Positions 8,461 through 60,923 of a stretch of DNA of 64,000 bases are shown here, piece by piece. The stretch is taken from NCBI RefSeq assembly GCF_000948285.1, contig NZ_JYBP01000003.1:1426001-1490000 (forward strand). Reading direction: 5' to 3'. A model generated the notes under the pieces. The model had not been told where the DNA came from and did no database searches. It saw nothing but the letters and a program-made list of their open reading frames with translations. Both the position numbers and the translations under genes were made by a program. Origin of the DNA: Geobacillus kaustophilus (GTDB lineage: Bacteria > Bacillota > Bacilli > Bacillales > Anoxybacillaceae). Numbering within the stretch: the first letter of the stretch is position 1; every line of letters begins with the position of its first letter.

Positions 8461-9918
8461 ATGAGAAATCCAAGTGTACGAAACATCTCGTTTTATGCAG
8501 CGGCGGCTTTGATCTTCTCGATGATGGTCTACAACGTCTTTTATCATCTAGGAACATTCCCGATTTCAAGCTGGGACGAAGCGCGTCATGGCGTCAATGC
8601 ATACGAAATGCTGAGGCATGGAAACTTGATCGTCAACACATACCTTGGGCATCCTGATTACTGGAATTTAAAGCCTCCTGTTAGCTACTGGGCGATCATG
8701 ATTGGCTATAAACTCGTTGGGATGAACGCGCTTGGTTTGCGGCTGATGTCTGGCATTTGCGCTACGCTCACGGCCGTTGCCATTGCGCTATTTGTGAAAA
8801 AACGGTTTGGAAGCATGGCCGCGATCGTCTCATTGCTTGCCTTGTCTACTAGCACCCAATATCTTCTCAACCATTGCGCTCGCACAGGAGATGCGGATTC
8901 GCTCTTTGTATTCTTCTTTACGTTATCCATCCTTTCTTTGCTGGCCGCCAGACGGCAGACGCGATGGTTGTATGCAGCGGGCCTTGCCTGTTCACTTGCT
9001 TTTTTAACGAAAAGTTGGCATGCGGGGAACATTCTGTTGATCATGGTCTTATATTTTCTCATCACTAGGCAGTGGGAGTCAGGACGCTGGCGCGCATGGT
9101 GGAGGGCAGCGCTCACCTTCGTTGTTCCTGTGCTCGCTTGGGCTTTTGCCCGCTATCACTATGATGGATTCAGTTTTTTTAAACAAATGATCGGATATGA
9201 CTTGTTGCTGCGCTCCACTCGGCCCATTGAAGGTCATATCGGCGATGAAACCTACTACGGCATCATTCTTGTTCATTTTTTCTTTTGGTGGCTGGCGCTC
9301 TTGGTCGGAATCATGGTCATCAGTTACATGCAAGGCGTTCGTCTTTTAGCGTTTGAAGGAACAGACCATCGATTGAAAGAAGATGTGATCGGGATTTTGC
9401 TTTGGATTTGCGTCCCGCTTCTCATGTTTACCATAGCTAAGACGAAAATCAGATGGTACATCCTCCCTGTCTATCCGCCGCTTTGCATGTTGATTGGCAT
9501 TTGCGCAAGTCAATTATGGAGAAAAGGAACGTGGGGAGCACGCGGGCTGCTGCTTGCCGGACTGTTGTTCGTCGCATCGTTTTACGAAACGAATATTCAA
9601 CATTATATCCATCATCCCAAGCCAAATTTCGAACTGGCATTGCTTCAGCAGACCGCCCAAATGCCTGTTCATGGATACGAACTGTTTATGTACCATCCGT
9701 TGCACGAGAAGGGTCGCTGGCCGCAAAATGCGGTCTTGACAGCAGAGCTTGCGAATGACCTCAAACCTCGGCACGGAGGGCTGAAAACGTTCTTGCATAC
9801 AAGCCGAAGCCTGCTTCTCGTGAAAAAAGCATGGTTCAGCAAACAGCTCGAGCATAAATACCACCTGTCTGTTCTCGCCTCGAACCGTTGGGGATATATT
9901 TTGGAAAAGCACGCTTAA
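8461..9918 (+). CDS. GT39-type (ArnT/PMT-like) membrane glycosyltransferase
   Basis: This 485-residue integral membrane protein has about 11-12 hydrophobic segments. The signature SWDEARHG just after the first helix (Asp39-Glu40) is the DE motif by which GT-C enzymes such as ArnT and protein O-mannosyltransferases bind polyprenyl-phosphate sugars. The PPVSYW-like motif follows in the loop (LKPPVSYWAIMIGYKLVG). I start at the ATG at 8461, with AAAGGAG nine bases upstream, rather than the earlier ATG at 8407, which lacks a ribosome site. It likely transfers a sugar from a lipid carrier to an extracellular glycan or protein. No neighbouring glycan genes help define the acceptor. Confidence 0.85.
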   Translation: MRNPSVRNISFYAAAALIFSMMVYNVFYHLGTFPISSWDEARHGVNAYEMLRHGNLIVNTYLGHPDYWNLKPPVSYWAIMIGYKLVGMNALGLRLMSGICATLTAVAIALFVKKRFGSMAAIVSLLALSTSTQYLLNHCARTGDADSLFVFFFTLSILSLLAARRQTRWLYAAGLACSLAFLTKSWHAGNILLIMVLYFLITRQWESGRWRAWWRAALTFVVPVLAWAFARYHYDGFSFFKQMIGYDLLLRSTRPIEGHIGDETYYGIILVHFFFWWLALLVGIMVISYMQGVRLLAFEGTDHRLKEDVIGILLWICVPLLMFTIAKTKIRWYILPVYPPLCMLIGICASQLWRKGTWGARGLLLAGLLFVASFYETNIQHYIHHPKPNFELALLQQTAQMPVHGYELFMYHPLHEKGRWPQNAVLTAELANDLKPRHGGLKTFLHTSRSLLLVKKAWFSKQLEHKYHLSVLASNRWGYILEKHA

Positions 9919-9922
9919 TGAG

Positions 9923-9955
9923 GCAGCCTTGGAGTGACGCTCGCTCCAAGGCTGC
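9923..9955 (+). terminator. Stem-loop after glycosyltransferase gene
   Basis: A perfect 12-bp stem (GCAGCCTTGGAG with CTCCAAGGCTGC) with a 9-base loop begins five bases after the stop codon. There is no U-run directly behind it, so it may be a weak terminator or a 3' stabilising hairpin. Confidence 0.6.
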
Positions 9956-10006
9956 ACAGCCATTCTTTCCTAACAGAAACTTTCCTCCTATCTCTTCTCA
10001 TCTCGC

Positions 10007-11434
10007 TTAACTTTCGTTAAAAATAATCAACTTCAACTCCGTCATTTCCTCGATCGCATAGCGAATGCCTTCACGCCCAAACCCGCTTTCTTTCACGCCG
10101 CCGTACGGCATATGGTCGACGCGGAACGTCGGGATGTCGTTGATCAGCACGCCACCGACGTGCAGTTGTTTCGCCGCTTTCCACGCGGTATGGACGTTGT
10201 CGGTGTAGATGCCTGCCTGCAAGCCGTAGCGCGAGTCGTTCACGAGCTCGATCGCCTCGTCGATTGAGCGGACGCGGTTGATCAACACAATCGGGGCGAA
10301 CACTTCCTGGCACGACACTTTCATCGTCGGTTCGGCGTCCAAAATTACCGTCGGAAACAAAATGTTGCCGTCCCGTTCACCGCCGAGGACGACGTTCGCG
10401 CCGCTTTGTTTTGCCTCTTCGATCCAGGAAAGCGCCCGGTCGACATCGTTTGGCGTGATCAGCGCCGAAACGTCCGTGTTCGGATCGAGTGGATCGCCCG
10501 TTTTTAATTGTTTCGCCGCAGCGACAAATTTTTCGACGAACTCGTCATACCGTTTTTCATGGACATAGACGCGCTGCAGCGAGATGCACACTTGTCCTTG
10601 GAACGTAAAGGCGCCGAATACGCAGCGCGGAATGATGCGGTCAATGTCCACGTGCTCGTCGACGATGACGGCCGAGTTCGACCCAAGTTCAAGCGTAACC
10701 CGCTTTAAGCCCGCTTTATTGCGGATGCCGATGCCGACTTCCGGGCTGCCGGTGAAAGTGATCATGCTGATGCGCGGGTCGGTGACGATTTTATCGCCGA
10801 CCGTGCGGCCGCTCCCAGTCACGACGTTAAGCGCCCCTTTCGGCAAACCCGCTCTCTCGAACAATTCAGCGATAAAGTAGGCCGACAGCGGCGTTTGGCT
10901 CGCTGGTTTCAACACAACCGTGTTGCCTGAGGCGATGGCCGGGCCGAGTTTATGGGCGACTAGGTTCATTGGAAAGTTAAACGGTGTGATCGCCCCGATG
11001 ACGCCGATCGGCTCGCGGACCGTCAGGGCGATGCGATTTTCCCCTCCCGGCGCCGCGTCAAGCGGCAGCGTTTCCCCATGGATGCGCTTTGCTTCTTCGG
11101 CGGCGAATTTGTACGTTTGGATCGTGCGCGCCACTTCCCCTCTCGCCGTTGTGATCGGCTTGGCCGCTTCAAGCGCGATCAATTTTGCCGCTTCTTCCTG
11201 CCGAGCTTTCAGCTGCTCGACGACCCGTTCTAAAATAGCCGCCCGCTCGTAGGCCGGCATAGCAGCCATCGTTTGCCGCGCCGCATACGCCGCGGCGATC
11301 GCTTCATCGACTTCTTGTTCCGTCGCCACCGGGATTTCAGCGATCGTCTCGCGCGAATACGGCGATTTCAGTTCGGTATAAGACTTGGCTTCCCGCCATT
11401 CGCCGTTGATGTATAGTTTTTTTCTTTCCGCCAT
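10007..11434 (-). CDS. NAD(P)-dependent aldehyde dehydrogenase
   Basis: This 475-residue enzyme has the complete aldehyde dehydrogenase fold: the TPFNFPMN coenzyme segment near residue 150, Glu249 in TLELGSNSAV as general base, and nucleophile Cys283 in FQGQVCIS. The ELGSNSA variant and the INDIPTFRVDHMPYGG end resemble the lactaldehyde/phosphonoacetaldehyde-type subgroup rather than the betaine-aldehyde type at 19.4 kb. Start at ATG 11434 with an AGGA site. It lies downstream of the sodium symporter on the same strand, next to GABA-type aminotransferases, so it could oxidise a semialdehyde made by them. Exact substrate not assignable. Confidence 0.88.
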   Translation of the reverse strand: MAERKKLYINGEWREAKSYTELKSPYSRETIAEIPVATEQEVDEAIAAAYAARQTMAAMPAYERAAILERVVEQLKARQEEAAKLIALEAAKPITTARGEVARTIQTYKFAAEEAKRIHGETLPLDAAPGGENRIALTVREPIGVIGAITPFNFPMNLVAHKLGPAIASGNTVVLKPASQTPLSAYFIAELFERAGLPKGALNVVTGSGRTVGDKIVTDPRISMITFTGSPEVGIGIRNKAGLKRVTLELGSNSAVIVDEHVDIDRIIPRCVFGAFTFQGQVCISLQRVYVHEKRYDEFVEKFVAAAKQLKTGDPLDPNTDVSALITPNDVDRALSWIEEAKQSGANVVLGGERDGNILFPTVILDAEPTMKVSCQEVFAPIVLINRVRSIDEAIELVNDSRYGLQAGIYTDNVHTAWKAAKQLHVGGVLINDIPTFRVDHMPYGGVKESGFGREGIRYAIEEMTELKLIIFNES

Positions 11435-11537
11435 GTTCTCATCCTTTCCTAACTAATATTCGCAACCCAAACATTGCCTGTGTCAATACATTTTTTATTT
11501 CGCCGCAAATTTGCCAGAATCCTCTTTTTTGATCCGT

Positions 11538-12962
11538 TTATAGGACATGTTGCTGATCCTCTATCATTTTATTCCCCTCTTTCAGATTCGAGGATGGAAA
11601 GATGTAAGAAAAAACCACAATAGAAACGATGCTCACCCCAATTCCATACATAATCGGATTGGTCGAACTTAATCCCTCCATCGCTAAACCAGCCAGCACA
11701 ACGACGGAACTAGTCATAATGGAATAAAAACCAGCTTTCGCCGTTGCCCGCTTCCAGAAGAAACCGAGAACCACTGGCACGAAAATGGCCCCTGACAGAA
11801 TCGCATAGGCGACATCGAGCGCCACCAGCACGTCCTGAATCCAAATAGCAAAGATAATGGCGACAATCCCAACCGCTAACGTCATCATTCTGGACAAAAG
11901 GACAAACTGCCGATCGCTCATATTTTTGAGCCAATATTGCTTCAAAATATCATACGATAACAGAGTGGACGAGGCAAGCAATGTTCCGGAAGCCGTTGAC
12001 ATCAGGGCGGAACATACGCTTGCCAAAATGAGCCCCAACAAGCCGTGCGGCAGAATCTCTAATGACATGCTGGCAAATACGTTTTGCGGATCGTTCATAT
12101 TCGGGAAAACAATCACCCCGCACATGCCAATGACGCTTAACGCCAATGCATAGGCAACACTGTACAAGCCGGCGTACACTGCGCCGCTTCGGGCAATTTT
12201 CGTTGTTCTGGCAGTAAACACCCGCTGCCAAATATCTTGTGATACAACCATTCCTAATGTATAGAGCAAGAAATATTGGAAAATATTCGCCCATCCCATG
12301 GACGTCAGATCAAAATGCGACGCTGGCAGTCGTTCCAAAAGCGACTCCCATCCACCGACATGGGACAAACTCATCGGCAACATCACGAAGAAAATGCCGA
12401 CTGTCATCACGATAAACTGAATAATGTCTGTCATCGTAACGCTCCACATTCCCCCGAGAATCGTGTAAAACAACACGATTCCCCCGCCGACTAACATCGA
12501 AACTGTCATGCTCCAACCTAAAACGGAATGAATAATCGTTCCCATCCCGATGACTTGTGTCACCGAAACCATCAGCGTATAAATCGCGGCAACCAACGCA
12601 CTGATCAAACGCGTTTCTTGATTGTAACGGCGTCCAAGCAGCTCACTGATCGTGGTCACGTTGGCGCCGTAAATTTGATTCGTAAAAAACAGGCCGAGCA
12701 CCGCGATGCCTAGACCAATCATAAAGACAAACCACATGCCCGAAATTCCAAATTGATATCCTAACTTCGCCGTTCCAATCGTTGAAGCACCGCCCAAAAT
12801 CACAGCGGACAGACATCCAAGATAGACAAATAGTCCGAGATTTCGGCCTGCCAACGCAAAATCTTCGGCGGTTTTCGCCCGCTTCGCCCCCAAAATCCCT
12901 GCGACGATCAATACGAGAAAATAACATAGGAGAACCCCAGTATCCAGTGCGTTCATAACCAT
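11538..12962 (-). CDS. Sodium:solute symporter family permease
   Basis: This 474-residue membrane protein of the SSS family (PutP/PanF/YodF type) has about 13 transmembrane helices. Family features seen are the early AEDFALAGRNLG segment, the GAEVI/TIGTA-like helix near residue 60 and the SALMSTASGTLLASSTLLSYDI stretch around residue 330 that lines the sodium site. Either of two ATGs (12962 or 12956) could be used behind GAGGATGGGGG. It lies 172 bp downstream of a class III aminotransferase gene on the same strand, suggesting import of the amino acid or amine it degrades. Confidence 0.88.
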   Translation of the reverse strand: MVMNALDTGVLLCYFLVLIVAGILGAKRAKTAEDFALAGRNLGLFVYLGCLSAVILGGASTIGTAKLGYQFGISGMWFVFMIGLGIAVLGLFFTNQIYGANVTTISELLGRRYNQETRLISALVAAIYTLMVSVTQVIGMGTIIHSVLGWSMTVSMLVGGGIVLFYTILGGMWSVTMTDIIQFIVMTVGIFFVMLPMSLSHVGGWESLLERLPASHFDLTSMGWANIFQYFLLYTLGMVVSQDIWQRVFTARTTKIARSGAVYAGLYSVAYALALSVIGMCGVIVFPNMNDPQNVFASMSLEILPHGLLGLILASVCSALMSTASGTLLASSTLLSYDILKQYWLKNMSDRQFVLLSRMMTLAVGIVAIIFAIWIQDVLVALDVAYAILSGAIFVPVVLGFFWKRATAKAGFYSIMTSSVVVLAGLAMEGLSSTNPIMYGIGVSIVSIVVFSYIFPSSNLKEGNKMIEDQQHVL

Positions 12963-13134
12963 TCCCCCATCCTCTTATTATCAGAAATCGCTGCCATTTT
13001 TCGAAAAACATTTTGCTTTCAAGACGCTTTCATCAGGAAGACAGCAGAAAGCCCTTCATTCTTTCAGTGAGGCACAACGTTGATCCCCGAACATGTCAAA
13101 TCTCCAAGCCGCAATCGACATGCGCCCCCCTTTT

Positions 13135-14472
13135 TCATTTTCCAGAAACGAATGAATGCACACCGATTTCCGCTTCATATTCGGTCAACGCTTCGTCCAG
13201 CATGCTTAATCCTTCGTCAATCTGTTCTTTTGTCACGATCAGCGGCGGGATCATGCGAATCACTTCTCCTTGATTGCCGCATAGATAGAAAAGAACACCT
13301 TTTTGCAGACAACGATTCAAAATATTCATCACTCCCTTCCCATTCGGTTCGCCAGTATGCGGATGGACGATCTCAATGCCGATCATGAGTCCGATCGAAC
13401 GCACGTCTCCAATGACGGAATGCTTCCTTTTTAAAACCTCCAGTTTTTTTCGCGCGTATTCCCCAACTTCCCTGCAATTTTCCAACAATTTTTCTTCCCT
13501 AAATACTTCTAAAGTCGCCAGCGCCGCCTCACATGCGATGGGGTTGCCGCCAAAGGTTGTCCCATGGCTGCCGAGCGGCCACTGTTTCATTAATTCTTTC
13601 GAAGCCACTGTTGCACTTAATGGAAGACCGGAAGCGATGCCCTTGGCAATTGCCATAATATCCGGCGTGACGCCAAACGTTTGAGCGGCAAACCATTCAC
13701 CTGTGCGGCCAAAGCCTGTCTGCACCTCATCGAAAATGAGCAATATTCCATGGTGGTCGCAAATTTCCCTCATTTTGCGAAGCCACCCTTTCGGAGGAAC
13801 GATATATCCTCCTTCTCCCAACACCGGCTCTACAATCATGCATGCCACTTCTTCGGGAGTCACTTGATGGGCAAACAAAGACGCTACATCACGTTCGAGC
13901 TTATCGGCGAAATACGCATCGGGATCCTCTCCTACCGAACAATCCTTTGGATTGGCATATGGAAGTTGATACGTCAACCCGTTTGGCTGCAAGTATTTCC
14001 GATATTTGCTTTTCGATGTGCTGACACTAAGCGCCCCTAACGAACGCCCATGAAAACATCCGGTAAATGAAATGACGTATGGCCGTCGCGTCACGTGTTT
14101 CGCTAATTTGATCGCACCTTCGATCGCTTCTGTTCCACTGTTGGCAAAAAAGAAGCAGTCAAGCCCTCCCGGCAAAATTTTCGTCAGCTCTTCGGCCAAG
14201 CGCAGAATTGATTCATACATGATGACGCCGCTCGGCCCATGTATCAGGCGGTCTGCAGCCTCTTTGATGGCATGCACGACTTTTGGATGACGATGACCCG
14301 TATTCGCCACGGCGATACCAGAAGTAAAATCAAGATATTTTCTTCCATCCAATCCGTAATAGTAGCATCCCTCTTCCTTGACAACCGGCAGATTCGGATG
14401 GTCTTTCGCCATCGTTGGCGCAAGCAAATCGGGCATTTTGTGAAAGAGAGGCATCCAGTTGTTCTCTGTCAC
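13135..14472 (-). CDS. Class III (omega) aminotransferase, GABA/ornithine type
   Basis: This PLP enzyme of about 445 residues carries the class III motifs: [14 protein letters not shown], the PLP-nitrogen Asp in [12 protein letters not shown], the Schiff-base Lys in [14 protein letters not shown], and [16 protein letters not shown]. It resembles 4-aminobutyrate and acetylornithine/putrescine aminotransferases; length and motifs do not fix the donor. I choose the GTG at 14472, six bases after GGGGGAG; a TTG two codons earlier is less well placed. Upstream at 14521-14538 is a sigma-54 type promoter, so the activator encoded at 16485 probably controls it. A MITE sits behind that promoter. Confidence 0.88.
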
Positions 14473-14520
14473 GCACAACTCCCCCTTTGGTCAAGGCATT
14501 TTTGTTCATCGAAAACGAAG

Positions 14521-14538
14521 ATGCAAATTTTATTCCAA
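14521..14538 (-). promoter_or_regulatory. Sigma-54 (-24/-12) promoter of class III aminotransferase gene
   Basis: On the minus strand the sequence TTGGAATAAAATTTGCAT has the invariant GG and GC separated by exactly ten bases and the T-rich stretch before the GC, matching the SigL consensus. It lies about 50 bp before the start codon. Confidence 0.85.
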
Positions 14539-14563
14539 TTTTTAACCTATTCTATATTTTTTG

Positions 14564-14699
14564 GGCTCTTCACCACAACATGTACTTGACAAGCAATACG
14601 GTTTCCTGCACAAAGATATGCAAAACGTGCTGATTTTCCCTCACAAGCGTAAATAGGGTATGTTCAGAAAAAATCAAGTACAACTTTTGGTGAAGAGCC
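14564..14699. mobile_element. 136-bp MITE with ISL3-type ends
   Basis: The element begins GGCTCTTCACCACAACATGT and its other end, read inward, begins GGCTCTTCACCAAAAGTTGT, so about 26 bp form terminal inverted repeats like those of the complete ISL3-family element at 42640. It is flanked by perfect 8-bp direct repeats ATTTTTTG (14556-14563 and 14700-14707), the ISL3 target duplication length. It has no transposase gene. It lies just upstream of the sigma-54 promoter at 14521. Confidence 0.9.
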
Positions 14700-14767
14700 A
14701 TTTTTTGTGAATTACTTTTATTAAGTTCCTGTTTTATAGCTTTACTTCCCATCCAGCAGCCGATCTC

Positions 14768-14804
14768 ATTCATTTTTGAATCAAAAAATTCATTTTTGAA
14801 TCAA
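14768..14804. promoter_or_regulatory. Tandem dyad repeat, candidate upstream activator site
   Basis: Two copies of the dyad ATTCATTTTTGAAT (ATTCA-N4-TGAAT) occur at 14768 and 14788, exactly 20 bp apart, the spacing expected for two activator dimers on one DNA face. They lie about 230-265 bp upstream of the sigma-54 promoter at 14521 and would be about 90-120 bp away without the MITE. Assignment to the sigma-54 activator is inference. Confidence 0.5.
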
Positions 14805-14863
14805 CACAGATTGTTCTTCTTTCAGGAAACATTTCCTCGTAGTGAAGAGATGAGTTTCAAATT

Positions 14864-14894
14864 AAAAAACCGCACCACGAAAAGGTGGCACGGT
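14864..14894 (-). terminator. Rho-independent terminator after gabT
   Basis: Read on the minus strand, ACCGTGCCAC pairs with GTGGTGCGGT (two G-U pairs) around a short U-rich loop and is followed by TTTTTT. It lies 80 bp after the gabT stop codon. Confidence 0.75.
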
Positions 14895-14973
14895 CCAAAA
14901 ACACGATGTCACCATCACCTTTTTTCGACCACATCACGAAGTTTCCATCAGTCGTTTGACGAGGAATCACTCA

Positions 14974-16320
14974 TCATGCCAATTCAGCAATGACCTCTTC
15001 GATGACATCCAATGCTTCCTCCAACTGTTCATCGGTGATGACAAGCGGCGTTAAGAGGCGAATGACATTGCTGTATAGACCCGCACTCATGACGATGACG
15101 CCCCGTTGATGGCATTCTCGCAAAATGGCGGCCGTTAACTCCTTATTCGGCGTTTTCGTCTTTGCATCGGTGACAAATTCAATGGCCACCATGGCTCCAA
15201 GCCCCCGTACATCCCCAATCGTCTCATATTTCTCCTGCAACTGTCTGAACCGCTTAATGACAGTTTCCCCAATGGCATTGGCGCGCTCAATGAGCCGCTC
15301 CTGCTGCAGCATATGAATCACTTCCAAAGCGGCCACGCAGCCAAGCGGGCTGCCCCCGTATGTCCCGCCGATTTCTCCTGGATTTGGCGCGTCCATAACT
15401 TCAGCTCTTCCTGTCACTGCGCTGATCGGCACCCCTGCTCCGATTGACTTCGACATGGTAATCAAATCGGGCACCACATCAAAATGTTCGATGGCGAACA
15501 TCTTCCCCGTTCGCCCAAATCCGGTCTGAATTTCATCAACAATAAACAAAATTCCGTATTTTTCACAAATGTGTTTGACCCCTTGGACAAACGTTTTTGA
15601 CGGAACAATAAACCCACCCTCTCCTTGCACAGGCTCCATCATAATCGCGGCTACGTCTTCTGCCGGAACTTCCGAGAGAAAAAAGTCCTCAAGCCGCTGC
15701 AAAAGCTCAGCATCCAATTCTTCGTTTGTCATGCCCGCCGGCTTTCGGTAATAATACGGATACGGCAGTTTGTACGTGTCGGGCGCAAAGGGGCCGAATC
15801 CAAATTTATACGGTTTAACTTTGCTCGTCAGCGACATCGCAAGCAACGTCCGCCCGTGAAACCCTCTTTCAAAAGAGAGAATGGCTCTTCTCCCAGTATA
15901 CTTTCGAGCGATTTTGACGGCATTCTCGACGGCCTCTGCCCCGCTGTTCAAGAAAAAGGTCTTTTTTGGATGTTTACCTGGCGTGATGCGGTTCAATGTC
16001 TCGGCCAACTCAATATATGGCTCATACATCATGACATGGAAACACGGATGAATGTACTGCTCCACTTGTTTTCCGATCGCTTGCACCACTTTCGGCGGGC
16101 AATGGCCGACATTGAGGCTGCCGATCGCCCCGGCCAAGTCAATAAACGTATTTCCATCCACATCGGTTAAGAGCGCTCCCTCCCCTTTTACCGCAAACGT
16201 CGGTACGGTGTTAAACGGCCCCCGCGGGACGTGCTCCTCTTTTCTCCGCAAAAGTTCAGTTGCTTTCGGACCAGGGATCGCTGTTTTAACGTGGATCCAT
16301 TTTTTTGTTTCTGCTTTCAC
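14974..16320 (-). CDS. gabT: 4-aminobutyrate aminotransferase
   Basis: This 448-residue class III aminotransferase should move the amino group of GABA to 2-oxoglutarate, yielding succinate semialdehyde. It shows the N-terminal IPGPKA segment typical of bacterial GabT, SGAEAVENAVKIAR, Asp262 in [12 protein letters not shown], the PLP Lys291 in TMSKSIGAGVPIS, and GGTYGGSPLGCVAAL. The gene is divergent from the sigma-54 activator at 16485 and has its own -24/-12 promoter at 16365-16382, the arrangement known for SigL/GabR-controlled gab genes in the B. cereus group. No GabD is adjacent; one of the two aldehyde dehydrogenases here could serve. Confidence 0.92.
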   Translation of the reverse strand: MKAETKKWIHVKTAIPGPKATELLRRKEEHVPRGPFNTVPTFAVKGEGALLTDVDGNTFIDLAGAIGSLNVGHCPPKVVQAIGKQVEQYIHPCFHVMMYEPYIELAETLNRITPGKHPKKTFFLNSGAEAVENAVKIARKYTGRRAILSFERGFHGRTLLAMSLTSKVKPYKFGFGPFAPDTYKLPYPYYYRKPAGMTNEELDAELLQRLEDFFLSEVPAEDVAAIMMEPVQGEGGFIVPSKTFVQGVKHICEKYGILFIVDEIQTGFGRTGKMFAIEHFDVVPDLITMSKSIGAGVPISAVTGRAEVMDAPNPGEIGGTYGGSPLGCVAALEVIHMLQQERLIERANAIGETVIKRFRQLQEKYETIGDVRGLGAMVAIEFVTDAKTKTPNKELTAAILRECHQRGVIVMSAGLYSNVIRLLTPLVITDEQLEEALDVIEEVIAELA

Positions 16321-16364
16321 CTTTATTTCCCTCCATCCTCATCCTATTGACTCACCTTGTATAG

Positions 16365-16382
16365 AAGCAAAAAACATGCCAA
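16365..16382 (-). promoter_or_regulatory. Sigma-54 promoter of gabT
   Basis: Minus-strand TTGGCATGTTTTTTGCTT has GG-N10-GC and is a near-perfect -24/-12 element, about 45 bp before the gabT start. Confidence 0.9.
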
Positions 16383-16484
16383 AAACTTTGCGGCAAATCA
16401 TATAACAAGGAAAGAGGATTTTTTCGCTTCTTTAGATAAAGTTAGTAAATAGAATCGCAGACAAATCACCGGGAGGGAACATAC

Positions 16485-17879
16485 ATGCAACGGATCGCCG
16501 ACATTTTAGAATTAGAATTGGATGCGATATTGAGATCATCCAACGATAATATTGTGATTACAGACGAAAACGGAATCGTTCTCCGCGCCAGCCCGAATTG
16601 CTTGTCCATTTACGGAAAGGACGCTTCTTATTTAGTCGGAAAGTCTGTCTATCAATTAGAAAAAGAAAACATCTTTTGCCCTTCGGTGACAGCCAGAGTA
16701 TTACGGGAGAAAAAAGAGGTTCAACTCATGCAGCAAACCGCAACCGGACGGGTTGTCATGGCGACAGGCGTACCGGTATTTGATCAACAAAACCGCATTG
16801 TTCGGGTAATCAGTTTTTCGCATGATTTAACAGAGTTGGAGCGTTTGAAAGAAGACTATGAAAAACTAAGAAAACAGATGGAACATTATCAAATGGAAAT
16901 AGGGGAATTGAAACCAGAAAATATTGTCATTCAAAGCAAGGCGATGGAACGGGTTTGGAAGCTCGTACACCGCGTTGCCCAGTCAGATGCGACTGTCCTT
17001 TTCCTTGGCGAATCCGGAGTCGGAAAAAATGTATTCGCCCGTTCCCTCCACCTCAATAGTCCAAGGCGAAATGAACCGTTTATTGAAGTAAACTGCAGCG
17101 CCATTCCTGAATCATTGTTTGAATCGGAAATGTTCGGCTATGAAAAAGGATCGTTTACCGGAGCGCAAAAAACAGGAAAACCAGGGCTGATCGAATTGGC
17201 CGACAAAGGAACTCTTTTCCTTGATGAAATTGGCGAACTTCCACTTTCGATGCAAGCGAAACTGCTGAAAGTGCTGCAGGAGAAAAAGGTCATACGCGTT
17301 GGAGGGGTGAAAGAACGATCGGTCGACTTTCGGTTGATTGCCTCGACCAATCGGGACTTAGAGGAGATGATAAAGCAGGGGAAGTTTCGCCAAGACTTAT
17401 TTTATCGTTTACATGTGATCCCGATTTATGTTCCTTCTTTGCGCGAGAGAAAAGAAGATATTTTCATGTTAGCGCAATACTTTTTGGAAAAGTTTAATAA
17501 AAAATACCATATGGATAAATACTTCCATCCATCCATTGTTGATCACCTGATTCACTACAATTGGCCAGGCAACGTGCGAGAGTTGGAAAATATGATCGAG
17601 CGATTGGTCATTACCTCTGAAACGAGAGCCATTTATCCAGAATATCTCCCTTTTTTCATCCATCAACATCCAGAGGCGATTGCAATCCATCCGCCGTTAG
17701 CAAAAGGGAACGAACCATCGACATTAAAAGAAGCCATTGAACAAGTGGAACGGCAATGGCTTCTGCGCGCCGTCAAACAATGCAAAACAACGTATGAGAT
17801 GGCTGATTATCTTGGCATCAGCCAGCCAACGGTCGTACGAAAGTTAAAAAAGTACCGTATTGATTCAAAAATGGATTAA
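16485..17879 (+). CDS. Sigma-54-dependent activator, PAS + AAA + HTH (GabR/RocR type)
   Basis: This 464-residue enhancer-binding protein drives SigL promoters. The domains in order are a PAS sensor at about residues 12-120, a short coiled linker, the AAA+ domain at about 145-375 and a Fis-type helix-turn-helix at the end (MADYLGISQPTVVRKL). The AAA+ domain has Walker A GESGVGKN, a sigma-54 contact loop reading GSFTGA instead of GAFTGA, and Walker B TLFLDEIGELP. It lacks a receiver domain, so the PAS domain probably senses a metabolite such as GABA or an amine. Start: ATG with GGAGGG seven bases upstream. Divergent from gabT; three -24/-12 promoters nearby are its likely targets. Confidence 0.92.
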   Translation: MQRIADILELELDAILRSSNDNIVITDENGIVLRASPNCLSIYGKDASYLVGKSVYQLEKENIFCPSVTARVLREKKEVQLMQQTATGRVVMATGVPVFDQQNRIVRVISFSHDLTELERLKEDYEKLRKQMEHYQMEIGELKPENIVIQSKAMERVWKLVHRVAQSDATVLFLGESGVGKNVFARSLHLNSPRRNEPFIEVNCSAIPESLFESEMFGYEKGSFTGAQKTGKPGLIELADKGTLFLDEIGELPLSMQAKLLKVLQEKKVIRVGGVKERSVDFRLIASTNRDLEEMIKQGKFRQDLFYRLHVIPIYVPSLRERKEDIFMLAQYFLEKFNKKYHMDKYFHPSIVDHLIHYNWPGNVRELENMIERLVITSETRAIYPEYLPFFIHQHPEAIAIHPPLAKGNEPSTLKEAIEQVERQWLLRAVKQCKTTYEMADYLGISQPTVVRKLKKYRIDSKMD

Positions 17880-17934
17880 AATTCACATTTTTGCATGACA
17901 TGTTTTCATCCATCCTTTTTTATCATTCCAAACC

Positions 17935-18176
17935 GGTGGGGGCGCTTGCTTCGGATGCTCGAGTATAAAGCGAAATGGTACGGGCGGACGGTGGTCCGTG
18001 TCGGCCGCACGTTTCCATCGAGCCAATTGTGCTCGTGCTGCGGGCGCCGGCATGTTGAGGTGAAATCGCACGACATCCGCGAGTGGGTGTGCCCAAACTG
18101 CGGAGCTGAACACGATCGAGACGAGAACGCCGCCCGAAATATTTTGCAGGAAGGGCTTCGTTTGCTGTCTTCGTAA
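17935..18176 (+). pseudogene. tnpB: TnpB (IS200/IS605 OrfB) C-terminal remnant
   Basis: Only the last ~80 residues of a TnpB RNA-guided nuclease remain: the [10 protein letters not shown] helix, the zinc ribbon with CSCC and CPNC cysteine pairs, and [12 protein letters not shown] carrying the final RuvC aspartate. The normal ~370-residue protein and the other RuvC residues are missing, and no start codon with a ribosome site belongs to it. It sits between the sigma-54 activator gene and that gene's apparent terminator at 18309. Confidence 0.88.
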
Positions 18177-18288
18177 GACAGCTGAACCGTGGGACGCACG
18201 GGGATGGCTTGGTGAACAGCCTGCCGCAGGGCGGGGGTTCCCGAGAATCTCCCACCTCGAAGCGCAAGCGTAGGTGGGAGAGCGTTCA
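18177..18288 (+). ncRNA. IS605-type right end with probable omega-RNA scaffold
   Basis: The stretch after the tnpB stop is GC-rich and structured. It ends in a hairpin (TCTCCCACCTcgaagcgcaagcgtAGGTGGGAGA, 18247-18281) and GTTCAA, the layout of an IS605-family right end. In intact elements the guide RNA that TnpB binds is made from exactly this region, overlapping the 3' end of tnpB. Whether it is still transcribed here is unknown. Confidence 0.6.
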
Positions 18289-18308
18289 ATCCGATGAGAA
18301 AAAGAAGA

Positions 18309-18358
18309 CCCGTAAGCGCCGCTACTTATATGAAAAACAAACCCGCTTACGGGCCTTT
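18309..18358 (+). terminator. Terminator, probably of the sigma-54 activator gene
   Basis: CCCGTAAGCG pairs perfectly with CGCTTACGGG across a 25-base A/T-rich loop and is followed by CCTTTTT. It lies 430 bp after the activator's stop, separated from it by the TnpB remnant. Confidence 0.75.
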
Positions 18359-18372
18359 TTGTTTCTGCATTC

Positions 18373-18390
18373 TTGGCACATTTTTTGCTT
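18373..18390 (+). promoter_or_regulatory. Sigma-54 promoter of ureohydrolase operon
   Basis: TTGGCACATTTTTTGCTT is an essentially perfect -24/-12 promoter (GG-N10-GC), 44 bp before the ATG at 18434. Confidence 0.92.
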
Positions 18391-18433
18391 TAAAGACTAT
18401 GAGAGCATTTTGAATGCCCAAGGAGGTCTTGAC

Positions 18434-19408
18434 ATGTACAAACCGAAAGATTCTTCCCTGTCCCCCCGCTTTTGCGGAGTTCGCACCTTTATGCGGTTGG
18501 AACAAATCAAAACAACAGACGATGTCGATTTTGTCATAGTTGGCGTTCCTTTTGACACCGCGGCATCGAACCGAACTGGACAACGATATGGCCCACAGCA
18601 CATTCGCAGTGTTTCTGTCTTGCTTCGCCCTTACAATCCAGATATGGATATTGATATTTTTGCCTATTGTTCCGGCGTCGATTTCGGGGATATTGATGTC
18701 ATTCCCGGCAATGCGCTCCGCACGTATGATCGCATCGTCGAAGAGCTGCGGCCGTTGTTGAAGAATGATGTCGTTCCCATTATCATGGGGGGCGATCACT
18801 CCATTACGTTGGGGAATTTACGAGCTTTTTATGAGCGCTTTGGCCCCATCGCACTCGTTCATTTTGATTCTCACAGTGACACTTGGGACCATTACTATGG
18901 AGAAAAATATATGCATGGCACGCCGTTCCGCCGCGCCGTCGAAGAAGGGTTGCTTGATGTGGACCATTCGATCCAAATCGGCATGCGCGGACCGCTTTAC
19001 AGCGCTGATGATATCGAGGATGCCCAGCGGCTTGGCTTCGAAGTCATTCCGATGAAAGAAGTCCGGCAGATCGGCTTTTCCGAAGTGATGCGCCGCGTTC
19101 ATCAACGCGTCGGGGACAAACCCGTTTTCGTTTCCTACGATATAGACTTTGTCGATCCTGCTTTTGCCCCGGGTACTGGCACACCGGAAGTGGGCGGGCC
19201 GACCAGTTATGAGGCGCTCGAATACGTAAGGGGGCTTGACGGGCTGAATATTGTCGGATTTGACCTCGTCGAAGTATTGCCTGCTTATGACTGCGGAGAA
19301 ATTACAGCGGTATTGGCTTCTGCCATTATGTATGAGATGATTACACTTGTGGCGTTAAAGAAAAAGCGGGCGCAGTCAAACACCCTGTCGGCAGCGAAAA
19401 CGACATAA
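18434..19408 (+). CDS. Agmatinase-family ureohydrolase (agmatinase or guanidinobutyrase)
   Basis: This 324-residue arginase-fold enzyme hydrolyses a guanidino compound to urea. All manganese ligands are present: His122 (GGDHS), Asp145, His147 and Asp149 (FDSHSD), Asp236 and Asp238 (SYDIDFVDPAFAPG). The APGTGTPEVGG segment is of agmatinase type. The ATG at 18434 has AAGGAGG eight bases upstream; an open frame continues upstream but is not gene-like. It leads a sigma-54-driven operon with an aldehyde dehydrogenase, NCS1 permease, amidase and cyclase, close to gabT. 4-Guanidinobutyrate to GABA plus urea fits this setting well; agmatine or guanidine as substrate is also possible. Confidence 0.88.
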   Translation: MYKPKDSSLSPRFCGVRTFMRLEQIKTTDDVDFVIVGVPFDTAASNRTGQRYGPQHIRSVSVLLRPYNPDMDIDIFAYCSGVDFGDIDVIPGNALRTYDRIVEELRPLLKNDVVPIIMGGDHSITLGNLRAFYERFGPIALVHFDSHSDTWDHYYGEKYMHGTPFRRAVEEGLLDVDHSIQIGMRGPLYSADDIEDAQRLGFEVIPMKEVRQIGFSEVMRRVHQRVGDKPVFVSYDIDFVDPAFAPGTGTPEVGGPTSYEALEYVRGLDGLNIVGFDLVEVLPAYDCGEITAVLASAIMYEMITLVALKKKRAQSNTLSAAKTT

Positions 19409-19438
19409 AACCATTTTAACGAAAAGGGGCAGCCTTCC

Positions 19439-20887
19439 ATGGTGTATATCAATGGAAAATGGAGCAAAGGACAAGGGAAAACAAGAGCCATCATCAATCC
19501 CGCGAATGAGGAAATCATAATAGAAATCAATGAAGCATCCCAGTCACAAACCGTAGAGGCGATCCAAGCGGCCCATCACGCCTTTCAATACACCGATTGG
19601 CCATCCAATCCGAGCATGCGGATTGCTGCGCTTCGCCAATTGGCGGATCTGTTGGAAAAAAACGCCGAAACATTCGCTTCGATCGAGACGTTGAATACAG
19701 GAAAACCGATTCGCGAGTCGCGCCTCGATGTCAGTGATTCGATCCAATGCCTCCGTTACTACGCCGATTTTGTTGAGCAACGGACCATCGAGGAAAAGAA
19801 AAGAACCGATGGCACGACAAGCAAAATCATTGAGGAACCGATCGGGGTATGCGCCCTCATCGTTCCTTGGAATTTCCCGCTCTTATTGGGGATATGGAAA
19901 TTGGCTCCGGCGCTTGCGGCGGGAAATACAGTGGTGTTTAAGCCATCAGAACTGACTCCGCTATCGTTCATGGAACTGACGAAGCTGATCGATTCCATCG
20001 GCCTCCCGCCCGGCGTGTTTAATCTCGTGCTTGGCGGCGGTTCGCCGGTTGGAGAAACATTGGTGACACATCCTGATGTGGAAAAAATATCGTTTACTGG
20101 CGGAACGAAAACCGGACGATGGATTTACGAACAATGCGCTCGTCGTTTGAAGCGAGTGTCTTTGGAACTCGGCGGAAAATCCCCGCTGATCATTTTTGAC
20201 GATGCGGATCTTATGAGCACCGTCGAGTGGGCGCTGTTTGCTTCCTTCTTCAATCAAGGGGAAGTGTGTGTGGCTGCTTCGCGCATTCTCGTTCATCGAC
20301 ACGTTTATGATTCGTTTATCGATCAGTTGGTCAAAAGACTGACGTCCCTCCGCATCGGAGATCCTTTCGCGGAAAACACTGAGATGGGGCCGTTAATCAG
20401 CTCCTCACATTTAGAAAAAGTGGAAACGTATATCCAGATCGGCTTGCAGGAGGGAGCAGTGCTGCTACAGGGAGGGGAACGAATCAAAGAACGGGGGTAT
20501 TATCTCACCCCTGCCGTTTTCACCCACGTCCGTCAAGACATGCGCATCGTCCAAGAAGAAATTTTTGGTCCTGTTATTACCGTACAACCGTTTGAACATG
20601 ACGAAGAAGCCATCGGCTTGGCGAACGATACGATATACGGACTAGCAGCTGGCCTATTCAGCCGAAATCTCGAACGGGCGGAACAAATCGCCGGCAAATT
20701 GAGAGCAGGAACGATTTGGATAAACAGCTATCACACTCCTTATGTCGATGCCCCTTGGGGCGGCATGAAACAAAGCGGAATCGGCCGGGAGCTTGGGCCG
20801 CAAGGATTTGCCGCTTTTACGGAAACAAAGCATGTGAACATCAGCCAACATGGCCAACCACTCGGATGGTATCCATCGCACTCCTGA
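19439..20887 (+). CDS. Aldehyde dehydrogenase, betaine/aminobutyraldehyde type
   Basis: This 482-residue enzyme has VPWNFP near residue 142, general base Glu243 in LELGGKSP and nucleophile Cys277 in NQGEVCVAASR. The overall pattern, ending APWGGMKQSGIGRELG, is that of betaine-aldehyde, aminobutyraldehyde or guanidinobutyraldehyde dehydrogenases. The start ATG at 19439 follows AAAGGGG. It is second in the operon, 30 bp after the ureohydrolase, so it probably makes the acid that the ureohydrolase or gabT then uses. A perfect hairpin overlaps its stop codon. Confidence 0.88.
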   Translation: MVYINGKWSKGQGKTRAIINPANEEIIIEINEASQSQTVEAIQAAHHAFQYTDWPSNPSMRIAALRQLADLLEKNAETFASIETLNTGKPIRESRLDVSDSIQCLRYYADFVEQRTIEEKKRTDGTTSKIIEEPIGVCALIVPWNFPLLLGIWKLAPALAAGNTVVFKPSELTPLSFMELTKLIDSIGLPPGVFNLVLGGGSPVGETLVTHPDVEKISFTGGTKTGRWIYEQCARRLKRVSLELGGKSPLIIFDDADLMSTVEWALFASFFNQGEVCVAASRILVHRHVYDSFIDQLVKRLTSLRIGDPFAENTEMGPLISSSHLEKVETYIQIGLQEGAVLLQGGERIKERGYYLTPAVFTHVRQDMRIVQEEIFGPVITVQPFEHDEEAIGLANDTIYGLAAGLFSRNLERAEQIAGKLRAGTIWINSYHTPYVDAPWGGMKQSGIGRELGPQGFAAFTETKHVNISQHGQPLGWYPSHS

Positions 20888-20910
20888 TTTCGTCCTTAGG
20901 ACGAAATCAG
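20884..20910 (+). promoter_or_regulatory. Perfect intercistronic hairpin
   Basis: CTGATTTCGTCC and GGACGAAATCAG form a perfect 12-bp stem around TTA, overlapping the aldehyde dehydrogenase stop codon. No U-run follows, so it is more likely an mRNA-stability or partial attenuation element than a full terminator. Confidence 0.55.
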
Positions 20911-20966
20911 TGCAGGTTTATTATTCTGAATATTTAAAATAAAAAAATCAAGGAGGAATGATCCTC

Positions 20967-22340
20967 ATGAAATGGACAGAACGGTTGGGTCATGATGATA
21001 TTCGGCCGACCCCGATGAACGAACGGAGCATGAACTTTTTTAGCACGTTTACCCTCTGGATTGCGGCGAATGTTGTGATTACCACTGTCATGACAGGAAT
21101 GATGTTTGTTCCTGACATTTCCTTCGCCAACGCCATGCTGGCGATTGTTGTCGGTTCGGCGATCGGCGCCATTCCGCTCGCCCTTACTGGAAACATCGGC
21201 ATCCGCACCGGACTCCCTACAATGGTGATGACAAGAGCAGCTTTTGGACAAAAAGGAGCCATCCTTCCCGCCTTTGTCAACACGATCATTTTAATCGGCT
21301 GGAGCTGGATTCAAGCCTATATGGCTGGCCTTAGCCTGAATTATGCCGTCCATTACACGACTGGATACAGCAATATCAACCTATTTGTGATCTTAACGGA
21401 GCTCCTTGTTGTGATCATTACGATTTTTGGCCACCGAGGGGTGGAACGAATTGAAAAATATATATCGATTGCCATGTTGATTTTATCTTTCCTTGTTTTC
21501 TACAAAATTTTTACGACTTACGACATTTCGACACTCGTCGAAATGAAATTGAGCGAGCATCCATCCGTGACCACGATCATAGCCTTTGACATCGTCGTCG
21601 CCACCGCTTTTTCTTGGATGTCGACAGTTTGCGATTTCAACCGCAACTGCCGCTCCGAAACAGGCGGGTTTTGGGGAACGTATTTTGGTTATCTTGTCGC
21701 GTCCATTGTCGCGATGGGGCTTGGGGCCGTTGTCAGCGGCTTCAGCATTGCCTCGAACATGGAACGGACTTATGATCCCACCATTCTCCTTGCGGCTTAC
21801 GGATTTGGATTGATCGCGTCTATCGTCGTTTTCTTTTCTGTACTCTCGACCAATGTCATGGCATTATATAGCGCCACAATGTCGTTTATGAACGTCTTCC
21901 CGCGCGCGGGCTTTTGGAAACCGACGTTGATCATGGGAGTGATTTGCACGCTTGGCGCCTTGCTGAAAGAAGTGCTGATGTCCCATTTCTTTAACTTCAT
22001 TATGCTGATTGCCACGTTGTTCATTCCTGTGTTTGCGATTGTGCTCGTTGATTACTTTTTTATCAAAAAAGGGGTATACGACGCGGAAGATATTTTGTAC
22101 GATACAAAAGGTCAATATCGTTATCAAAAAGGAGTCAACATCGCCGCCTACATCACCTATATCGTTGGAGCTGTCTTCGCCTATTATTTTACGTACATTC
22201 ATCCACTTGCCGTCGGCTCCACCATGCTGACGTTTCTTTTATCGGGGGCTGTTTATTTTGGGTTGATGAAATGGACAAAACAAATATTGGCAAGCACGAA
22301 TACGATGGAGCTTGAATCTCCCACTAACTTGGAGGGATGA
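20967..22340 (+). CDS. NCS1-family (cytosine/purine/allantoin type) permease
   Basis: This permease of about 457 residues has roughly 12 membrane helices. The N-terminal DIRPTPMNERSMNFFSTFTLW segment carries the NCS1 signature in which a helix-1 motif precedes the transport core, and GLPTMVMTRAAFGQKGA near residue 80 is the conserved first half of the substrate site. The ATG at 20967 lies ten bases after GGAGG; an ATG at 20958 is too close to that site. It overlaps the amidase gene by context and likely imports the compound broken down by this operon. NCS1 members usually carry nucleobases or related amides. Confidence 0.87.
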   Translation: MKWTERLGHDDIRPTPMNERSMNFFSTFTLWIAANVVITTVMTGMMFVPDISFANAMLAIVVGSAIGAIPLALTGNIGIRTGLPTMVMTRAAFGQKGAILPAFVNTIILIGWSWIQAYMAGLSLNYAVHYTTGYSNINLFVILTELLVVIITIFGHRGVERIEKYISIAMLILSFLVFYKIFTTYDISTLVEMKLSEHPSVTTIIAFDIVVATAFSWMSTVCDFNRNCRSETGGFWGTYFGYLVASIVAMGLGAVVSGFSIASNMERTYDPTILLAAYGFGLIASIVVFFSVLSTNVMALYSATMSFMNVFPRAGFWKPTLIMGVICTLGALLKEVLMSHFFNFIMLIATLFIPVFAIVLVDYFFIKKGVYDAEDILYDTKGQYRYQKGVNIAAYITYIVGAVFAYYFTYIHPLAVGSTMLTFLLSGAVYFGLMKWTKQILASTNTMELESPTNLEG

Positions 22341-42639: not shown

Positions 42640-43961
42640 GGCTCTTCACCACAAGTTGTACTTGATGATTTAAGATCGGTGTGCATAGCGAAAATAGAGG
42701 GTACAAAAAATGCGAATTTTCCTGTATGGTAAAGGTGACCAAACCAAACCATTGGAGGAAAATTCGCATGTACGCTCAGTTTATCAAAGAACTTATCGAT
42801 TTACCAGATGTTTTGATTCAAAAGGTGCGAAAAGAAGGAGATCGTTGGATTTTCGAACTTTCTCTACCTGAACAATGCTCGGCTTGAAACGCACGATCAA
42901 AATGACAGGAAAAAAGAAGCAATGGATGCATGGCTATGCTCAACGAATCGGGATTTTTTGGATTGAACTCCCTGTCGAGCGCAGACGTTGTAGTACGTGT
43001 GGCATGACGTTCAGCACGTCTTATCCAGGAATCTCCCCTCCAAGTGTGGCAACAGACGCTTTTCAGCAATGGGTGGCGCAATCTTGCATCGGGACATCCA
43101 TTCAGGCAGTAGCTCGGATGCTCAAACTCCCTTACACGACCGTGGAACGTTGGTTTTATACCCATGCCCCTTCCTTCCTATCGAATGATATCCAACCAAA
43201 GGCGGTTTGTGTCGATGAATTTGCCTTTCGAAAAGGGCATGACTACGCAGTGGCGATCATGGATGCCGAGACGGGAGAAGGGTATGCCATCGAAGCTGGA
43301 AAGAACGAGGAAGCCATCAGACGTGCGTTGGCGCATGTGTCTCGTTCTGTTCAGTATGTCGTAAGCGATTTAGCCCCAGCGATGAAAAAAGCCATTCAAG
43401 GGGGTTGCCCAGAGGCGACACACGTGGTCGATTATTTCCATGTCATTCAGCTGTTTACGGATGCTTTAGATCGTTGCCGCAAATATGTAGACAAAGGAAG
43501 CAAGAAACACGGAAATGTTCGTTACGTTTGCCGTTTATTGAGCACATGCCCAGAGAAATTGACGGAGGAAGAACGTCAAATCGTACGAGAATGGTGTAAT
43601 GAAAGCGATGACTTAAAGTCGGTCTACCAATCGCTCCAACATTTTCGTTATGTGTCCAAAAGCAAAGACGAGCAACAGGCGAAACGACGTTTGGAGTCTT
43701 GGATTCATCGGTATTCGTTTTGTCCTTGTTCGGTTGTGCGCGCGATTGCAAAAGCGCTCGTCAAGCGAACAGAAGAAATCGTTTCTTGCATTTTATCCCC
43801 TTACTCGAATGGGAAAATGGAAGGAACGAACAACAAGATCAAGCTGATCAAACGTCGAGGATATGGATACAGAAATATCCAGCGTTTTGCATTACGGGTT
43901 CGGTTAGAAACGACTAACATACTTTAATGGCAGGTGCAAGTACATCTTTTGGTGATGAACC
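42640..43961. mobile_element. ISL3-family element, copy A
   Basis: The 1322-bp element has ends GGCTCTTCACCACAAGTTGT and (inverted) GGTTCATCACCAAAAGATGT, with perfect 8-bp duplications ATTTTTTG. Its right end matches those of the 153-bp MITEs, making this type of element their likely source of transposase. Confidence 0.93.
42768..43927 (+). pseudogene. ISL3 transposase with one frameshift
   Basis: The first frame runs MYAQFIKELIDLPDVLIQKV to LPEQCSA, then hits TGA exactly where the second zinc-finger cysteine codon should be; one base is missing. The second frame carries the rest: CSTCGMTF finger, helix-turn-helix (IQAVARMLKLPYTTVERW), CVDEFAFRKGHDYAV, YVVSDLAPAMKKAI, VDYFHVIQ and NGKMEGTNNKIKLIKRRGYG. 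Total about 385 codons. Confidence 0.88.
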
Positions 43962-44133: not shown

Positions 44134-44286
44134 GGCTATTCACCACAAAGTGTACTTGACAAATAAAGACGATCATGATTGAGAAAATCAAAACATCTTT
44201 TTTCCTTTTAATACCATACATCTCTTTGAGCAACATTGTTATCATGTTTGTCTTTAAAATTCAAGTACATCTTTTGGTGATGAACC
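44134..44286. mobile_element. 153-bp ISL3-type MITE
   Basis: Nearly identical to the copy at 27781. Flanked by eight A residues on each side, which serve as target duplication. It separates the start of a secreted-protein gene from its ribosome site. Confidence 0.9.
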
Positions 44287-60770: not shown

Positions 60771-60923
60771 GGTTCATCACCAAAAGATGTACTTGAATTT
60801 TAAAGACAAACATGATAACAATGTTGCTCAAAGAGACGTATGGTATTAAAAGGAAAAAAGATGTTTTGATTTTCTCAATCATGATCGTCTTTATTTGTCA
60901 AGTACACTTTGTGGTGAAGATCC
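60771..60923. mobile_element. 153-bp ISL3-type MITE, inverted copy
   Basis: Same length and nearly the same sequence as copies at 27781 and 44134, in the opposite orientation. Flanking octamers ATTATATT and ATAAAAAA do not match, so the copy was rearranged after insertion. The 405-bp gap at 60667-61071 otherwise shows only an IS4 remnant. Confidence 0.88.

Follow-up and report, generated by a model that had tools for sequence, protein, structure and literature searches.

The window analyzed here, i.e., the whole 64,000-nucleotide stretch of Geobacillus kaustophilus DNA, harbors a gene cluster which has aldehyde dehydrogenases among its members and to which the following genes and terminator-like site belong.

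10007 to 11434, minus strand: aldehyde dehydrogenase, the next gene downstream of the symporter gene, on the same strand
11538 to 12962, minus strand: sodium:solute symporter, the next gene 3′ of at2, on the same strand
13135 to 14478, minus strand: at2, a PRK08117-family class-III aminotransferase, the gene targeted by the sigma-54 promoter at 14522 to 14538
14867 to 14896, minus strand: terminator-like site behind gabT
14974 to 16320, minus strand: gabT, 4-aminobutyrate--2-oxoglutarate transaminase
16485 to 17879, plus strand: sigma-54 activator with a PAS domain, an AAA+ sigma-54 interaction domain, and a Fis-type helix-turn-helix (HTH)
18434 to 19408, plus strand: agmatinase-family gene

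The terminator-like site behind gabT suggests that at2 requires a promoter of its own. The probable start codon of at2 is a GTG (14472 to 14470), where relatives possess ATG, and the source genome carries two additional bases 3′ of the ribosome-binding site compared with these relatives. The genes of the cluster are under purifying selection, with dN/dS values of 0.04 to 0.08 in pairs including the source genome, values which say nothing on the short time elapsed after a recent insertion. A sigma-54 gene was found in the source genome, as were five strong sigma-54 activator domains in addition to that of the activator encoded at 16485 to 17879. An Rfam scan of positions 9000 to 22000 returned no match. 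In Geobacillus thermodenitrificans (locus L082), gabT is absent upstream of at2, only a short fragment resembling it being present, and the activator gene is divergent from at2.

Three sigma-54 promoters are predicted within the cluster.

14522 to 14538, minus strand: sigma-54 promoter of at2, TTGGAATAAAATTTGCA, identified by consensus match and matrix score
16366 to 16382, minus strand: sigma-54 promoter of gabT, TTGGCATGTTTTTTGCT, conserved in relatives
18373 to 18389, plus strand: sigma-54 promoter of the agmatinase gene, TTGGCACATTTTTTGCT

The at2 promoter carries two mismatches to TTGGCAC-N5-TTGCW and retains the −24 GG and the −12 GC in the arrangement GG-N10-GC. By a weight matrix built from the promoters of relatives, the three highest-scoring sigma-54 sites of the 64 kb all precede genes of the at2/gabT/agmatinase cluster; the at2 promoter is the third best of these, the gabT and agmatinase promoters scoring higher, and in a ranking among 35 reference promoters its score is the fourth from the bottom. 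Four relatives carry GGCAC in the −24 element, which has changed to GGAAT in the source lineage only; other relatives also vary at this position (TTGGTAT and TTGGAAC). As promoter matches with up to three mismatches occur in the window at chance level (112 versus 111 expected), and single dyads of the type described below are likewise not enriched there (6 with up to one mismatch, versus 4.7 in shuffled sequence), the consensus alone proves nothing.

Two dyads are located behind the at2 promoter.

14768 to 14781: candidate enhancer dyad 1, ATTCATTTTTGAAT, the nearer dyad to the at2 promoter
14788 to 14801: candidate enhancer dyad 2, ATTCATTTTTGAAT, starting 20 bp from the start of dyad 1

Both are perfect ATTCA-N4-TGAAT matches, better than the dyads of close relatives, and the dyad pairs found at at2 in relatives keep a step of 19 to 21 bp. 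The dyads, the at2 promoter, and their relative order are conserved in these relatives. When two mismatches are allowed, the source genome holds a single tandem dyad pair; with one mismatch allowed, such a pair is present in 11 of the 397 genomes from the order, and the reversed control of the tandem pattern gave no match. Several of the other places at which a tandem pair was detected have, as a neighbor, a strong sigma-54 promoter or an activator homologous to that encoded at 16485 to 17879. Weaker dyad matches (C3:61247 and C3:65970) were set aside as chance occurrences, being without a good adjoining sigma-54 promoter.

The relationship between dyad and activator was evident across a wider set of loci. 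Of the 80 loci fetched with at2, 66 contain a co-directional activator homologue (37 to 50% identity), and in all of these, one or more dyads with no more than one mismatch are present in the 350 bp 5′ of the activator gene, compared with 4.4% in shuffled sequence and 2.8% in composition-matched windows of the same loci; the 66 loci span many genera and include close relatives, and so do not represent 66 independent events. In six relatives, dyads are also found before the agmatinase promoter, where they overlap the 3′ end of the activator gene. The dyads, which the first-pass annotation had put forward as candidate activator sites, are on these sequence comparisons very probably binding sites for the nearby-encoded family of PAS-AAA+-HTH activators, and hence an enhancer, with the product of 16485 to 17879 as their probable binder. 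It appears very doubtful that they belong to another regulator and are unrelated to the at2 promoter: although the source genome encodes five more sigma-54 activator domains, and the tie between dyad and activator is one of sequence association, the 66/66 association with this activator family and the presence of dyads, in relatives, at each of the two spacers of the cluster argue against such an assignment. In a literature search, judged by titles and abstracts, no listed paper containing the dyad letters describes the sequence as a regulatory element in bacilli. In a further genus of the order (L173 to L176), an acyl-CoA dehydrogenase-like gene is preceded by three dyads together with a perfect sigma-54 promoter, the same dyad motif apparently being used there in a different pathway.

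Between the dyads and the at2 promoter lies a MITE, and a related full-length element is present elsewhere in the window.

14556 to 14563: target site duplication, copy 1, ATTTTTTG, perfect, 8 bp
14564 to 14699: MITE of ISL3 type, 136 bp, terminal repeats GGCTCTTCACC..., with near-identical copies elsewhere in the genome
14700 to 14707: target site duplication, copy 2, ATTTTTTG, perfect, 8 bp
42640 to 43961, plus strand: full ISL3-family insertion sequence, with a transposase open reading frame (42875 to 43927) containing ISL3 domains

The positions of the MITE, its target duplication, the dyads, and the promoter are as the first-pass annotation had given them. The arms of the MITE are 26 nucleotides long and 88% complementary, and its ends are common to many element ends in the source genome. 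Three other copies with 98 to 100% identity, each with an 8-bp duplication, are present in the genome, two of them identical to the copy at 14564 to 14699, and further copies share 71 to 79% identity with it. A perfect 8-bp duplication is also present at L001, L003, L004, L005, L006, and L009, most of the inspected copies showing one, and the family was found in 10 of 14 genomes of the genus. Because the full insertion sequence in the window has ends similar to those of the MITE and the identical duplicated target ATTTTTTG, the element is identified by sequence as an ISL3-type MITE, with an ISL3 transposase as the putative mobilizing enzyme. It shares the terminal GGCTCTTCACC motif and the 8-bp target duplications with ISL3-family insertion sequences and MITEs, and differs from the insertion sequences in being only 136 bp long and devoid of a transposase. 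Two more MITE-like elements, each approximately 153 bp in length and with ends of variant sequence (GGTTCATCACC and similar), are located at positions 44134 to 44286 and 60771 to 60923 of the window.

The locus aligns across terminator, dyads, and promoter in four MITE-free relatives, namely, Geobacillus zalihae, Geobacillus icigianus, G. thermodenitrificans, and the genome G012, in all of which the promoter is canonical, and a single uninterrupted CAAAAAAT occupies the insertion site in G. zalihae. The comparison with MITE-free Geobacillus, on which the first-pass annotation had made its reading depend, thus finds the dyads in each of the four. That these relatives possess both promoter and dyads without the MITE, and that the MITE is 100% identical to two other copies, argues for its recent insertion at the at2 locus. 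Insertion sequences in Geobacillus are able to switch on neighboring genes (PMC8024623), and a MITE which carries its own promoter, or builds a hybrid sigma-70 promoter, would render at2 independent of the activator; this appears extremely unlikely, as a consensus scan of 14470 to 14960, MITE included, detected no sigma-70-type promoter.

With the MITE in place, the −24 GG is 231 bp away from the nearer dyad and 251 bp away from the farther one, and joining of the flanks without the 144-bp insert returns 87 and 107 bp, in agreement with the shift from about 100 to about 240 bp suggested by the first-pass annotation. The nearer dyad is 84 bp from the −24 GG in G. zalihae, 110 to 111 bp in G. 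icigianus, G. thermodenitrificans, and G012, 113 bp in Aneurinibacillus danicus, and 201 to 234 bp in Parageobacillus and Anoxybacillus relatives. In 39 other bacilli (L039 to L104), the dyads are found 1361 to 1489 bp from the at2 promoter (median, 1414), with the activator gene in between, and, with the exception of L088, the 600 bp upstream of at2 harbor no dyad with up to one mismatch; the dyads of these relatives could serve a promoter other than that of at2. Helical phasing at 10.4 to 10.6 bp was not apparent among 13 natural spacings, a small sample which makes for a weak test. In Parageobacillus caldoxylosilyticus and Aneurinibacillus thermoaerophilus (L033 and L036), the at2 spacer still holds decayed pieces of such an activator (HTH and linker). 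A likely history is that the activator gene originally lay between enhancer and promoter and was later lost in thermophiles, with shortening of the spacer; the MITE would then, in the presumed order of events, have re-lengthened the spacer in the source strain.

As natural spacings at at2 range from 84 bp to approximately 1.4 kb, the new 231-bp spacing falls within the tolerated range, and it is well supported by these sequence comparisons that the MITE has not broken the at2 promoter. We consider it likely that the locus represents a looping enhancer whose spacer has been stretched within the range tolerated by the family, with its function kept and its output changed modestly at most. According to this model, the dyads at 14768 to 14801 would constitute the upstream activating sequence bound by the activator encoded at 16485 to 17879, which would loop the intervening DNA so as to contact the sigma-54 RNA polymerase at 14522 to 14538. 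This contact would start transcription of at2 and probably also of the symporter and dehydrogenase genes behind it. The ISL3-type MITE, having recently entered the AT-rich spacer, would have extended it from 87 to 231 bp and left a working switch, because the activator family operates, in relatives, at widely differing spacings. It is known from the laboratory that looping enhancers of sigma-54 promoters tolerate relocated sites. NtrC sites have been moved over 1000 bp, and the RocR enhancer is active 1.5 kb away and, in part, at 15 kb (PMC4941409).

The first-pass annotation had proposed a promoter retuned rather than broken by the mobile element; its second half is well supported by the natural spacings, the retuning itself is hypothetical, and the wide natural distances and lack of visible phasing are most simply read as tolerance of the insertion with little effect. 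Retuning in the upward direction would presuppose that stiff DNA of 87 bp resists looping and that a 231-bp loop eases contact between activator and polymerase, such that induced expression rises. In a worm-like-chain simulation, end contacts were approximately 3- to 50-fold more frequent for 241 bp than for 97 bp, a factor which depends on stiffness and capture radius and which, at its largest, rests on very few contacts. The simulation omits protein size, HU-type bending proteins, curvature, and twist, and is too naive to carry such a claim; moreover, the 144-bp insert corresponds to 13.71 helical turns and hence changes the phase, while spacers of 84 to 113 bp are kept by close relatives, so that short spacing is not a handicap removed by selection. 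We, therefore, regard upward retuning as unlikely.

Tolerance of the insertion must also be weighed against a general decay of sigma-54 control of the cluster in this lineage, of which the MITE would be one symptom. Loss of CAC from the −24 element and the replacement of the ATG start codon with GTG, both changes of the lineage itself which may matter as much as the MITE, make wider erosion a fair rival, and the agmatinase enhancer provides a further argument.

17863 to 17876: remaining candidate agmatinase enhancer dyad, ATTCAAAAATGGAT, within the last codons of the activator gene
17895 to 18176, plus strand: C-terminal remnant of a TnpB-type protein, inside approximately 440 bp of extra DNA (roughly 17897 to 18334)

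The partner of this dyad is degraded in the source genome, and the extra DNA with the TnpB remnant, of which a 97% copy is present elsewhere in the genome, separates the dyad from the agmatinase promoter. On the other hand, both dyads at 14768 to 14801 are perfect and superior to those of close relatives, the genes, with their low dN/dS, encode intact products, the at2 promoter still ranks among the three highest-scoring sigma-54 sites in the window, and the −24 element varies in other relatives as well. Erosion is, on balance, deemed rather improbable, and a stretched but functional looping enhancer remains our preferred reading. The nearest agmatinase dyad is 498 bp from the −24 GG in the source genome, compared with 41 to 110 bp in relatives; by sequence comparison, mobile DNA has, therefore, lengthened both dyad-promoter spacers of one cluster in one genome.

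The conserved gabT promoter is without a matching dyad nearby, the nearest being approximately 1.5 to 1.6 kb away on either side, and must consequently use such a remote site or another activator; it may be switched on by an enhancer that is remote or lies downstream. A tentative extension, which we consider possible but improbable, is that the dyad pair at 14768 to 14801 serves all three promoters (at approximately 0.23, 1.6, and 3.6 kb), with both spacers stretched by mobile DNA and one of the agmatinase dyads lost. The RocR-controlled roc genes of Bacillus subtilis (rocG and rocABC) offer a precedent for an enhancer shared between upstream and downstream genes: one sigma-54 activator governs several sigma-54 promoters of one catabolic locus, and an enhancer located between two genes (downstream of rocG and serving as the upstream activating sequence of rocABC) can act on both, over kilobases (PMC4941409). 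The likeness is one of locus arrangement; the genes differ, and the at2 spacer is interrupted by mobile DNA. In Bacillus thuringiensis, GabR, a PAS-domain sigma-54 activator whose gene likewise adjoins the GABA transaminase gene, binds repeats upstream of the promoter, with a footprint close to it and gabT as the direct target (PMC4279683), whereas gabT of the source genome is without a nearby dyad and the dyads lie behind it. At the SoxR-sox locus of B. thuringiensis, a sigma-54 promoter is reportedly controlled from an activator site located 1.7 kb away or farther (PMC4941409), a distance which resembles the 1.4-kb arrangement of the 39 relatives, although the pathway differs and the likeness is confined to distance.

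The sigma-54 promoter, the enhancer, and the ISL3 MITE are all of known kinds; while the mechanism is not new, the natural experiment is unusual, and the ranked results of a literature search contained nothing on a MITE between an enhancer and a sigma-54 promoter. Its value lies in the combination of a natural spacing series across species (approximately 0.1, 0.2, and 1.4 kb), a recent insertion, and the assignment of a motif, by which it becomes directly testable how enhancer distance affects a native promoter. A probable binding motif is thereby gained for an activator family of many bacilli, for which the literature search gave none. If the shared-enhancer reading were true, enhancer-promoter distance would, within this activator family, be a freely evolving trait, altered repeatedly through gene loss and mobile elements.
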